From positions 1,624,501 through 1,688,500 of the forward strand of contig NZ_BSEC01000001.1 in the NCBI RefSeq assembly GCF_027923385.1: 64,000 nucleotides of DNA, in the 5' to 3' direction. Made by a program: the position numbers and the translations under genes. Every line of letters starts with the position of its first letter. The stretch's first letter is position 1. Below the pieces are notes generated by a model. It was not told where the DNA came from, made no database searches, and was given only the letters and a program-made list of their open reading frames with translations. This DNA is from Methylocystis echinoides. Its GTDB lineage: Bacteria; Pseudomonadota; Alphaproteobacteria; Rhizobiales; Beijerinckiaceae. Positions 18,572-22,721 of the stretch are shown here, piece after piece.

Positions 18572-20176
18572 ATGACAACCGCCACCGACAGCTTCCACCA
18601 CGACATCGCCGACCGTCACGACAAGGTGCTCATCGTCGACTTCGGCTCGCAGGTCACGCAGCTCATCGCGCGGCGCGTGCGCGAAGCGGGGGTCTATTGC
18701 GAGATCGCGCCCTTCCAGAGCGCCGACCGCGCCTTCGCGGAAATCCGCCCCAAGGCGGTCATCCTCTCCGGCGGCCCCTGCTCGGTGACCGACGAGGGCT
18801 CGCCGCGCGCGCCGCAGGCGATCTTCGAGTCCGGCGTGCCCGTGCTCGGCATTTGCTACGGCGAGCAGACCATGGCGACGCAGCTCGGCGGCAAGGTCGA
18901 AGCCGGACATCATCGCGAATTCGGCCGCGCCGACATCACCGCGCTGGAGCATAGCGCGCTGTTCGACGGCGTGTGGAAGCAGGGCGCGAGCTACACCGTC
19001 TGGATGAGCCACGGCGACCGCGTCACGAAACTGCCCGACGGCTTCCGTGTCATCGCGGCGTCCGAGAATGCGCCTATGGCGGCCATCGCGGATGAAAAGC
19101 GGCGCTATTTCGGCCTGCAATTCCACCCCGAAGTCGTGCACACGCCGGACGGCGCCAAGCTCCTTTCCAATTTCGTGCACAAGGTCGCGGGGCTGAAATC
19201 CGACTGGACCATGGCGGCGTTTCGCGGCGAGGCCATCGCGGCGATCCGCAGGCAGGTCGGCGACGGGCGCGTGCTGTGCGGGCTTTCCGGCGGCGTCGAC
19301 AGCGCGGTGGCGGCGGTGCTGATCCATGAAGCGATTGGCGACCGGCTCACCTGCGTCTTCGTCGATCACGGCCTGCTGCGGCTCGGCGAAGCGGAGGAGG
19401 TCGTGCGCCTGTTCCGTGACCATTACAATATTCCGCTGCATCACGTCGAAGCGGAAGAGCTGTTTCTCGGCGCGCTCGACGGCGTCGACGATCCTGAGGT
19501 GAAGCGCAAGACCATTGGTCGCCTGTTCATCGAGACCTTCGAGGCGGAGGCGAAGAAGATTGCGCAGGACGGGCGCGGGGCGCCGCAATTCCTCGCACAG
19601 GGCACGCTCTATCCGGATGTGATCGAGAGCGTCTCCTTCACCGGGGGGCCCTCGGTGACGATCAAATCGCATCACAATGTCGGCGGTCTGCCGGAGCGCA
19701 TGAACATGGCGCTGGTGGAGCCGTTGCGCGAGCTGTTCAAGGACGAAGTGCGCGCGCTGGGCCGCGAACTCGGATTGCCCGAAGCCTTCGTCGGTCGCCA
19801 TCCCTTCCCGGGACCCGGCCTCGCCATTCGCTGCCCCGGACTCATCACGCGCGAGAAACTCGATATTCTGCGCAAGGCGGATGCAGTCTATCTCGACGAG
19901 ATCCGCAAGGCCGGTCTTTACGATCACATCTGGCAGGCCTTCGCGGCGCTGCTGCCGGTGCGCAGCGTCGGCGTGATGGGCGACGGGCGCACTTATGACT
20001 ATGTGCTGGCCCTGCGCGCTGTCACGAGCAGCGACGGCATGACTGCCGACTTCTTCCACTTCGACATGAATTTCCTCGGCCGCGCGGCGACCCGGATCAT
20101 CAATGAGGTGAAGGGGGTGAACCGCGTGGTCTATGACGTGACGTCGAAGCCGCCGGGCACGATCGAGTGGGAATGA
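18572..20176 (+). CDS. guaA: GMP synthase (glutamine-hydrolysing)
   Basis: GuaA converts XMP to GMP. The 534-residue protein has the N-terminal class I glutamine amidotransferase domain (VLGICYGEQTMA with the nucleophilic cysteine, FHPEVVHTPDG with His-x-Glu), the ATP pyrophosphatase domain (GLSGGVDSAVAAVL P-loop) and the C-terminal dimerisation domain ending PPGTIEWE. The start is the ATG at 18572. The 3' end acts as the left boundary of a small island: its last 15 bases recur at 22707-22721. Confidence 0.97.
   Translation: MTTATDSFHHDIADRHDKVLIVDFGSQVTQLIARRVREAGVYCEIAPFQSADRAFAEIRPKAVILSGGPCSVTDEGSPRAPQAIFESGVPVLGICYGEQTMATQLGGKVEAGHHREFGRADITALEHSALFDGVWKQGASYTVWMSHGDRVTKLPDGFRVIAASENAPMAAIADEKRRYFGLQFHPEVVHTPDGAKLLSNFVHKVAGLKSDWTMAAFRGEAIAAIRRQVGDGRVLCGLSGGVDSAVAAVLIHEAIGDRLTCVFVDHGLLRLGEAEEVVRLFRDHYNIPLHHVEAEELFLGALDGVDDPEVKRKTIGRLFIETFEAEAKKIAQDGRGAPQFLAQGTLYPDVIESVSFTGGPSVTIKSHHNVGGLPERMNMALVEPLRELFKDEVRALGRELGLPEAFVGRHPFPGPGLAIRCPGLITREKLDILRKADAVYLDEIRKAGLYDHIWQAFAALLPVRSVGVMGDGRTYDYVLALRAVTSSDGMTADFFHFDMNFLGRAATRIINEVKGVNRVVYDVTSKPPGTIEWE
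20162..20176. repeat. Left attachment-like repeat at the guaA 3' end
   Basis: ATCGAGTGGGAATGA, the last codons and stop of guaA, recurs with one mismatch (ATCGAGTGGGAGTGA) at 22707-22721 in the same orientation. The flanking GGCACG/GGAACT extend the match to 18 of 21 bases. The 3' end of guaA is a known integration site for genomic islands, so this is read as attL. Confidence 0.65.
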
Positions 20177-20506
20177 GGGGGGTGGGATACGCTAGAGGGC
20201 TTTAGAGGGGAATAACGTAGGAAAAATAAAGGCTTATGGTACATTTATTGATTATCCAAAGTCCATTGTCAATCGAGTTCCCAGCCGGCTCTAAGTTATT
20301 TATTTTCAAGAAGATGCGTCGCAAACTGCCAAAACGAGAAAAGGGCGGCAAAAAAATGACGGCGCTTCAGACGGTAATTTTCGTGCCGGAAAGAGCAGTC
20401 GAGAAAACTACCGTCAGATTGAATCGTTGGGTCTGACGGTAGTCTTGGATTGAAGCTGAACGGGGCGACCTCCATCTTTTCGGTTCAAACTTCACGGTGG
20501 CGTCCA
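20177..20506. other. Non-coding, AT-rich left end of the guaA island
   Basis: Base composition drops sharply just after guaA (for example AGGAAAAATAAAGGCTTATGG). I see no convincing gene; a 66-codon frame from 20236 has no ribosome-binding site and an unremarkable sequence. The region holds a perfect 12-bp inverted repeat at 20407-20443. Confidence 0.6.
20407..20443. repeat. Perfect 12-bp inverted repeat in the island
   Basis: ACTACCGTCAGA (20407-20418) and TCTGACGGTAGT (20432-20443) are perfect arms around 13 bases, 64 bases before the likely start of the first island gene. No T-run follows, so it is more likely an operator or recombinase site than a terminator. Confidence 0.7.
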
Positions 20507-21922
20507 ATGGCGAGGCCGATCAGCCAGACCCTGTTTGATCTTCTTGCGATTGGCACACGCCGGTCGATTACCAGGGTCATGTCCACCGAGCTGTCTTGGT
20601 GGTCGACCCTAGATGGGGACATCCTCGGAACTGTGTTTCGGGACACTTGCGACCAAGACTATGGCTGGATCCTGCTTGTTCGCGACTTGGTCGGCCGATT
20701 CCGATGCGCCGATATTCAGGTTAGCTTTAGAACGGAGCGCATCGCCACGGCACGGCTGCGGATCGCGATGGCCGAGAAGAACCGCGATCCGACGTTCACC
20801 GGCCTGGAGGAGCAGGGCGATGAGCCTAAGGTCCCCCTCGACTTATTCGAGGACCGTAGCATCCCTGAGGCCCGCCTTCACAAGTACTATCTTGAGCTAC
20901 GTGATCGACCGGCTCGCAATCCAGCGCGCAAAGTCTTCGAAGCCATCTCGCCCTGGTTGGTGAGTTCTGATCCGCACCTTGTGAAAGAGTTTCAAGAATC
21001 ACAATTTGATCAGCGACTCTGGGAAATCTACCTTTGGACTATGTTCCGCGATCAGGGCTACGATGTAGAACATCGTGAGGCCCCCGATCTGAAGGTAACG
21101 AGCCCTTGGTTTAGTTTCTCGGTCGAAGCCACTACCGTGGCGCCGTCCACGGCGGGGCCACTCGCCCTACACCCCGATCCGCAGACCCCTGAAGAGATCG
21201 CTGCCTTCTTGACTGACTATATGCCGATGAAGTTCGGCTCGCCGCTTGTCTCCAAGCTTAAGAAAGTCGACGCCCAGGGGCGCCATTATTGGGAGAAGCC
21301 AGGTGTCGAGGACATGCCGTTCGTGTTGGCAATTGCCGATTTTCACAAGGAAGCTGATGGGTTATCGCCGGCGTCACTGACTTACAGCCAAGGCGGCCTG
21401 TATCCATATTTGTATGGAACGCGCGTCAGCGTTGAGGCTGTCGATGGACAAGTCATCTTCCGAAATGAACCCGTAACCGAACATACCTACAACGGCAAAT
21501 CGGTGCCATCGGGCTTTTTTGACCTCCCCGATGCGGAACATGTTGCTGCTGTCGTGTTCTCCAATGCTGGAACTATCGCCAAGTTCGACAGAATGGGCGT
21601 ACTCGCCGGCTTCGCGCCGCCCAAGCACACCTATATCCGGATGGGATACGTTTTTGACCCTGATCCCAATGCGCTTGTGGGCATTCCATTTTCAATCGAC
21701 GTGAGCAATCCTGCGTATACAGAGTACTGGGGTGATGAGGTGCAGGTCTTTCACAATCCGCGCGCGCTCAGGCGAGTTCCGCCGGAAGCTTTCCCGGATG
21801 CTGCCCACTTCTTCTATGAGAACGGTAAGTTATCGACCATCGATCGCGGTGGCCGAGTCCTTTCCTCGATGACCATGATCCTTCACGCCGTCGATGATAG
21901 CCAATCTGCGCAAGTGTCTTGA
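20507..21922 (+). CDS. Island protein of unknown function, possible nuclease-like core
   Basis: The 471-residue protein has no signal peptide or membrane segment. I chose the ATG at 20507; the frame is open from 20450. A central block, FDQRLWEIYLWTMFRDQGYDVEHREAPDLK...FSFSVEATT (residues about 167-210, shown in part), has Glu173, Asp194 and Glu207 spaced like a PD-(D/E)XK nuclease core, although the usual Lys after the last Glu is replaced (EATT). Codon use and GC are lower than in neighbouring core genes, which suggests recent acquisition. I do not recognise a named family; it may be a defence or restriction-related protein. Confidence 0.6.
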   Translation: MARPISQTLFDLLAIGTRRSITRVMSTELSWWSTLDGDILGTVFRDTCDQDYGWILLVRDLVGRFRCADIQVSFRTERIATARLRIAMAEKNRDPTFTGLEEQGDEPKVPLDLFEDRSIPEARLHKYYLELRDRPARNPARKVFEAISPWLVSSDPHLVKEFQESQFDQRLWEIYLWTMFRDQGYDVEHREAPDLKVTSPWFSFSVEATTVAPSTAGPLALHPDPQTPEEIAAFLTDYMPMKFGSPLVSKLKKVDAQGRHYWEKPGVEDMPFVLAIADFHKEADGLSPASLTYSQGGLYPYLYGTRVSVEAVDGQVIFRNEPVTEHTYNGKSVPSGFFDLPDAEHVAAVVFSNAGTIAKFDRMGVLAGFAPPKHTYIRMGYVFDPDPNALVGIPFSIDVSNPAYTEYWGDEVQVFHNPRALRRVPPEAFPDAAHFFYENGKLSTIDRGGRVLSSMTMILHAVDDSQSAQVS

Positions 21923-22450: not shown

Positions 22451-22706
22451 ACGATCTCGCGTCGATACGCAAAAACCGGGGGAGATGACGGTACTTTTTT
22501 ACGTCGACCATGATGCGCAAATACTCCGGGCTTCGCAATTCTGGATCGAAAAGGTGCCGATAGATGGCGAAACCACGAAAAAAATTTTCGCCGGAAAAGC
22601 CGTTGAGAATCAAGATCGTGAGTTTTCGACGGCTTTCGGGGCGGGCCTTTGGCGGTGCGTCAAAGAAATACTACTAAAACTCAATATGTTAGGCGGAATC
22701 GGAACT

Positions 22707-22721
22707 ATCGAGTGGGAGTGA
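22707..22721. repeat. Right attachment-like repeat of the guaA island
   Basis: ATCGAGTGGGAGTGA ends a short reading frame whose last residues are GTIEWE, exactly the C-terminus of GuaA, so a displaced guaA 3' end lies here. With 20162-20176 it brackets a 2.5-kb segment. No integrase gene is present between the two copies. Confidence 0.65.

Follow-up and report, generated by a model that had tools for sequence, protein, structure and literature searches.

At the 3′ end of guaA in the Methylocystis echinoides genome (5.3 Mb; called G000 below, other G numbers denoting comparison genomes), a 2,545-bp island that carries a putative anti-phage gene lies between two copies of the last guaA codons. 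The two cores delimit an insertion, a relative has the matching empty site, the right end of the island is conserved, and no recognisable cognate integrase is present in the genome. That the segment entered guaA by site-specific recombination is nearly certain. With moderate confidence, we read the segment as a non-autonomous, integrase-free island, a cassette resembling the cis-mobilizable elements (CIMEs), which was placed in guaA by an integrase from another element. The analysis covers a 64-kb stretch of DNA (the window), in which the island and its target gene comprise the following features:

18572..20176, + strand: guaA (GMP synthase, 534 amino acids), whose last codons are the integration site; it ends GTIEWE-stop and is open throughout
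20162..20176, + strand: left copy of the attachment (att) core, ATCGAGTGGGAATGA, at the guaA 3′ end; GAA version
20177..20450, + strand: island left end, with GACGGT / ACCGTC / GACGGT arm-type motifs at 20370-20440
20507-21922, + strand: PD-T7-1 homologue (471 amino acids), a putative anti-phage gene found with PADLOC; AlphaFold model, predicted local distance difference test (pLDDT) 89.8
22031-22450, + strand: nucleotidyltransferase (Pol-beta / MntA-like) domain protein, 139 amino acids, TTG start; weak family scores
22482..22721, + strand: island right end, a conserved recombination end running TGACGGTACTTTT ... CCGATAGATGGCGAAACC ... AATCAAGA ... TTTTCGACGG ... TCAATATGTTA ... core
22681..22691, + strand: arm motif TCAATATGTTA, starting 26 bp 5′ of the core, the same position as in other guaA islands
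22707..22721, + strand: right copy of the att core, ATCGAGTGGGAGTGA

Insertion between two guaA-end cores

Both guaA-end copies that the first-pass annotation of this DNA had taken as the bounds of a small island are present, and the 15-mer core, searched at ≤1 mismatch, matches these two sites only across the whole genome (reversed pattern, 0). The copies agree at 18 of 21 bases when 20156-20176 is compared with 22701-22721, and GGNACNATCGAGTGGGANTGA, allowing ≤3 mismatches, occurs twice in the window against a shuffled mean of 0.04. By chance, a stretch of 5 kb would hold a perfect 15-mer match on one strand about 1e-5 times. A repeat match no better than chance in other strains, which had been named as fatal to the island idea, was not seen. 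The DNA between the copies is also AT-richer, as had been claimed, with a GC content per 400-bp interval of 0.48-0.58 against 0.63-0.69 over guaA.

A second guaA end could also arise by partial duplication of guaA or by homologous exchange, and duplications are known from G032 and G237, where the last 46 and 50 codons, respectively, are copied with no arm motif. In G000, however, the two copies agree no better than chance upstream of the core (6/20, 11/40 and 16/60 bases), and the second copy is preceded by a conserved island end whose profile match, given below, contradicts such an origin; we consider it very improbable. In the G032 locus (L040 5365-7357), nitrile hydratase alpha and beta-C genes lie between guaA and the copied codons, an insertion of another kind, while the similar guaA-end copy of G237 (L088) lies 0.76 kb away.

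An empty site in a relative, which the annotation had proposed to look for, was found in G002, a genome of the same genus (guaA of G000 is about 84-97% identical to that of same-genus genomes by tblastn). G002 has a single guaA end followed immediately by a homologue of the DNA that lies 3′ of the second copy in G000 (79% over 92 bp and 84% over 363 bp), including part of an alpha/beta hydrolase gene. The 2.5-kb segment was thus inserted between the two cores. The last sense codon of guaA is GAA in the left copy and GAG in both the second copy and the G002 empty site, the pattern to be expected had the crossover brought in the codon version of the island. The left core is likewise GAA in 25 of 28 integrase-bearing guaA islands; in some other small islands (G036, G322 and G393) it is GAG. 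In the mechanism that we propose, a tyrosine recombinase related to that of GIsul2, encoded by another element, would recombine a circle (joining right end, core and left end) with the end of guaA, and the crossover would swap the last sense codon of guaA, now GAA, so that the second copy has GAG. The reading frame of guaA stays open, as its last codons are repeated in the core.

Two further features lie beyond the second copy:

22722..23250, + strand: post-island flank, directly 3′ of guaA in the G002 empty site
within 22940-23326, − strand: remnant (truncated) alpha/beta hydrolase gene

In G002 the hydrolase region is followed by a gene of the resistance-nodulation-division (RND) type; the matching RND gene of G000 sits beyond an IS21-type pair at 23396-25659, comprising IstB (E=1e-72) and a transposase with rve and Mu-transpos_C_2 domains. 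The pair was not seen at the syntenic G002 site. The proximity of these genes could suggest that the 15-mer near guaA is fortuitous and that the cargo came by another route, e.g., with this element. Yet the pair lies outside the repeats, past the hydrolase remnant, the expected number of chance matches is minute, and both the G002 empty site and the conserved right end contradict this explanation, to which we give almost no credence.

Island ends and the cognate integrase

The right end ties the G000 island to other guaA islands. An alignment of seven right-end sequences from guaA islands of the genus reveals shared blocks and the arm motif 26 bp before the core, with one deviating member (G004 contig 10, second site). 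A profile derived from 45 distinct right-end sequences, all of them from genomes other than G000, matches 22482-22721 with E=5e-30, and after removal of its last 45 bases, i.e., the core and the arm motif, it still matches 22483-22672 (E=2.5e-19) as its sole match in 64 kb. The corresponding arm-plus-core pattern, TCAA-N4-TTA-N15-core with ≤2 mismatches, is found in 8/39 genomes of the genus (9 sites; control 0) and in 37/397 genomes of the order (control 1/397), and the right end has no match among 72,556 plasmid and 50,697 phage records. The first-pass annotation had read the second copy as an in-frame GTIEWE-stop. The copy stands, but its reading frame does not: the 78-amino-acid open reading frame (ORF) at 22485-22721 that ends in GTIEWE overlaps the conserved right end, so the in-frame peptide is most simply incidental read-through, and the ORF, having no Pfam, PADLOC or NCBIfam match, was rejected as a gene. 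In one other genome (G280; L090, L091, L118, L119 and L120) six right-end pattern matches occur, tandem segments among them, and one 6.3-kb segment holds a gene for an arabinofuranosidase and, judged by eye, others for ABC transporters.

The left end is less typical. In integrase-bearing islands, TGACGG-type motifs recur in the left end with constant spacing, and the G000 array reproduces, without mismatch, the spacing seen in 18 of 28 such left ends, about 65 bp further from the core; otherwise the G000 left end is unlike them. At ≤1 mismatch per motif such an array has about 0.9 chance matches per 64 kb, and the window holds one other, poorer match. The exact 8-mer TGACGGTA, counted on both strands, speaks in favour of the left end: its three occurrences in the window all fall within the two island ends. 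Judged from these motifs, the resemblance to guaA-island left ends is suggestive, not proven; that the left end is a full copy of the integrase-bearing type is unsupported (left-end profile E=0.03 on the end alone, no match in the window search). Among 38 other same-genus genomes, the left end has one match, of about 31 bp, in G011 (E=0.006).

Some islands with this right end, including those of G010 (11.2 kb), G022, G129 and G091, encode an integrase. This enzyme is a tyrosine recombinase that combines the domains Phage_integrase, Arm-DNA-bind_3 and Phage_int_M, and it is present in 34/397 genomes of the order at E≤1e-100. Of 30 integrase loci fetched, 28 have a core upstream, and all 28 cores are the guaA end, 262-290 bp before the integrase. 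Right-end pattern and integrase occur together in 23/397 genomes, where 3.2 would be expected (P about 1e-19). An integrase of pAB3 shares 57% identity over 93% with that of G010 and adjoins alpA, repA and repC, sul2 lying beyond them; this is the GIsul2 layout, and we take pAB3 to carry GIsul2.

In line with the earlier claim that the island lacks an integrase, a tblastn search with 35 integrases (E<1e-5) found no tyrosine recombinase or integrase fragment between the cores, and the cargo genes belong to other families. G000 has 31 Pfam Phage_integrase matches, and none is an obvious helper: 30 of these 31 loci were compared with five guaA-island integrases, the best identity being 29%. An integrase of unrelated type in G000 might nevertheless accept these ends.

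Several other guaA loci deserve mention. Integrase matches beside guaA are shortened or split in G003 and G031. G035 has two guaA genes on separate contigs (L051 and L052), and behind each lies a guaA-type integrase from a second subfamily that shares about 45% identity with the G022 type; L052 also has a MobA/MobL relaxase gene and L051 looks similar by eye, though the pair could be contamination. A 3,975-base circular Sphingomonas record (L194, NZ_CP155767.1) with guaA, a guaA-type integrase and alpA is possibly an assembly fragment or an excised circle, and a 3-kb guaA island of G048 (L041) has an integrase in which Arm-DNA-bind_3 is not matched, and lacks the arm motif 26 bp before its second core.

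Small integrase-free guaA islands and their cargo

The right-end signature was used to examine 51 sites, that of G000 among them (≤2 mismatches, so that some may be chance; duplicate loci L108-L116 left out). An upstream core lies within the fetched stretch at 14 of the 51, and in eight cases it is the guaA end. Of these eight islands, seven are below 5 kb and integrase-free, namely those of G000 (2,545 bp), G036 (700 bp), G446 (4,513 bp), G322 (4,242 bp), G238 (1,834 bp), G437 (2,537 bp) and G393 (2,274 bp), whereas the eighth, of G010, spans 11.2 kb and has an integrase; the proportion is biased to small islands because longer ones ran beyond the fetched stretches. The small-island segments contain no N bases. 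A guaA-type integrase was sought in the seven small-island genomes, several of them draft assemblies, at E≤1e-30: six had no match and G000 had one at 30%. Different cargo between the same kind of repeats, the second check that the annotation had suggested, was found in the other small islands: a YCII-domain protein, an SNF2 helicase, a HipA-like protein, a TetR regulator with an FAD oxidoreductase, and a beta-lactamase-family serine hydrolase, with nothing clear in G238. Defence as a general cargo was rejected: eight ORFs of other islands and segments gave two PADLOC matches, the G446 SNF2 helicase (best DpdE, probably via a helicase domain common to both) and, with a weak match, the G322 gene for the HipA-like protein. 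In G337, a 2.26-kb integrase-free segment with short-chain dehydrogenase/reductase (SDR) and HTH_18 AraC-type genes is flanked by two right ends and follows an integrase-bearing guaA island, a tandem expected for accretion. The seven small islands span five families of one order, which suggests that integrase-free guaA islands are under-counted. We found no published description of such islands in this order, in a literature viewed in part and hence no proof of absence.

Since the G000 island has the right end of larger guaA islands and no integrase, it was probably either moved by the enzyme of another element or has lost its own. The annotation's proposal of a stripped or trans-mobilised island is therefore well borne out, by the G002 empty site, by the varied cargo elsewhere and by a right end common to integrase-bearing islands. 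As for the choice between its two halves, an internal deletion may have removed the integrase and most of the genes from an integrase-bearing guaA island, of which the two ends and the PD-T7-1 segment would remain. Decay in which the att sites survive is the very definition of a CIME in passages of PMC5704250; the G238 island matches the left-end profile (E=1.5e-23; G437, 1.3e-11) yet has no clear cargo gene, the shortened or split integrase matches of G003 and G031 speak for decay too, and the weak left end of G000 would fit as well. Against decay, the G000 segment holds no integrase fragment, both cargo ORFs are open, small integrase-free guaA islands recur in seven genomes, and the PD-T7-1 ATG, 330 bp after the core, stands near the position at which the integrase starts in the 28 islands (262-290 bp). 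We regard decay as quite possible.

A borrowed integrase is favoured because small integrase-free islands recur and no integrase fragments are found; under this reading the enzyme would have acted in trans rather than been lost later, and the element may still be excisable. Several observations weigh against it. No helper is now present in G000, the best identity in a whole-genome search with the G010 integrase being 30%, and among the 37 order genomes with the right-end pattern, 14 lack any integrase match at E≤1e-100, although in some of these 14 the pattern match is weak, with two mismatches, and may be due to chance. The left-end profile result is poor; since the resemblance to integrase-bearing left ends is confined to the motif array, the left half-site may have been damaged or may belong to a different subtype. 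Of the six other small islands, four (G036, G446, G322 and G393) show no recognisable left arm array, nor does the G337 segment, and the left end of G322 is similar to the right flank of the same island (83% over 123 bp). Finally, no other host among 101 relatives and 298 family genomes was found to carry this cassette at guaA. With no helper, a weak left end and no second copy of the cassette elsewhere, decay is left open. More broadly, we tentatively propose an order-wide family of integrase-free cassettes in which one or two cargo genes (defence, regulatory or metabolic) between a guaA core and a conserved right end of ~235 bp might be moved by GIsul2-related integrases of passing islands, guaA serving as a docking site.

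Two genes had been noted between the copies; they are the PD-T7-1 homologue and the nucleotidyltransferase gene, neither of which belongs to a transfer family. The former matches the PADLOC PD-T7-1 profile over its full length (residues 2-459 on 2-448 of 452, E=4.4e-141), and its model is confident, with fold searches giving no clear match. A PD-(D/E)XK nuclease domain is listed for PD-T7-1 in a portion of PMC10952713, and the invariant residues E172, P192-D193 and E206 would fit this assignment. According to excerpts of PMC9519451, PD-T7-1 protection is stronger against T-even phages than against T7, and the cargo may defend its host against phage.

Relatives of PD-T7-1 number at least 692 in a protein search (7,994 candidates scored); one of them (P0002) is 81% identical, and another, 52% identical, is named Methylocystis sp. 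The distribution is patchy: 5/298 family genomes, G000 included, have a match at E≤1e-60, the other four being 38-53% identical. In a search of 101 relatives, the matches from the genus are those of G002 (51%), about 1.3 Mb from its guaA, and of G018 (38%), whose 8.6-kb contig has neither guaA nor a core. The same genes in the same place without the second guaA-end copy, an outcome that would have counted against the island, were not seen among these diverged matches. In another family of the order, a PD-T7-1-like gene (L098 9933-10850 in G091; 35-37% identity) lies about 6-7 kb from a guaA-island integrase. No partner toxin gene was recognised for the nucleotidyltransferase gene, and a fixed pairing of the two cargo genes was rejected: six loci with PD-T7-1 relatives lack such a neighbour, with one 30-residue match (E=0.51).

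Defence genes come and go fast, and how single ones move is often unclear. If our reading is true, an element with only recombination ends and a defence gene, using a borrowed integrase, would be a cheap route for such movement. Surveys based on integrases would miss such elements, whereas the right-end signature makes these islands searchable.

As to the surroundings, a DUF559 gene (E=7e-36; related to small endonucleases) lies just 5′ of guaA at 18039-18512, surrounded by palindrome-like extragenic repeats (judged by eye). The genome has four AMO/pMMO family matches, and the host is thus probably a methane oxidiser.

Comparison with known systems

The closest parallel is GIsul2, whose integrase, as outlined in parts of PMC9376610, moves a CR2-sul2 unit at guaA att sites; this unit is bounded by attLR and attR, and its conserved regions, of 119 and 304 bp, extend up to the cores. 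As in G000, the site there is the guaA 3′ end with a GAGTGGGA core, and the integrases of guaA islands with this right end are related to that of pAB3, as the G010 enzyme illustrates. The CR2-sul2 unit differs in its cargo (rcr2 and sul2 against PD-T7-1 and nucleotidyltransferase) and in having an integrase-bearing partner, of which the G000 genome has none. The G000 island does not have the GIsul2 backbone and has ends of its own, the right-end profile finding just the core in the pAB3 stretch (E=0.0067).

Integrative and conjugative elements (ICEs) and integrative and mobilizable elements (IMEs) at guaA, e.g., in Mesorhizobium (portions of PMC8627217) and the IncP island of Brucella suis (passages of PMC5704250), share the integration site within Alphaproteobacteria; they encode an integrase and transfer functions, whereas the G000 island encodes neither and so lacks the own integrase of an IME. 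The PD-T7-1 system was described from E. coli, as excerpts of PMC9519451 state, and the G000 cargo is a full-length profile match of putative function.

Integrase-free islands are also reported at other targets. In Dehalococcoides, integrase-free islands lie beside integrase-bearing ones at one target gene, with 15 reported in the passages of PMC3146451 at hand; they differ from the G000 island in using a serine recombinase, in targeting ssrA and in having dehalogenase genes among their cargo. The microcin H47 island of E. coli, in the relevant part of PMC3191183, likewise has no integrase and draws its recombination functions from the E. coli background, but it spans 13 kb and has several recombination sites.

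CIMEs, as characterised in passages of PMC5704250, keep their att sites and lack integration and transfer genes. The G000 island likewise retains attL and attR, the left arm being recognised by its motif array and not by the profile, and has no integration or transfer genes of its own. It differs in being very small, with one cargo unit, and in that an origin by decay, the usual account for CIMEs, is a possibility here. The island may derive from an ICE or IME by loss of modules; its right end is common to integrase-bearing islands, and no intermediate was seen. A CIME-like tandem with an integrase-bearing island is present in G337.

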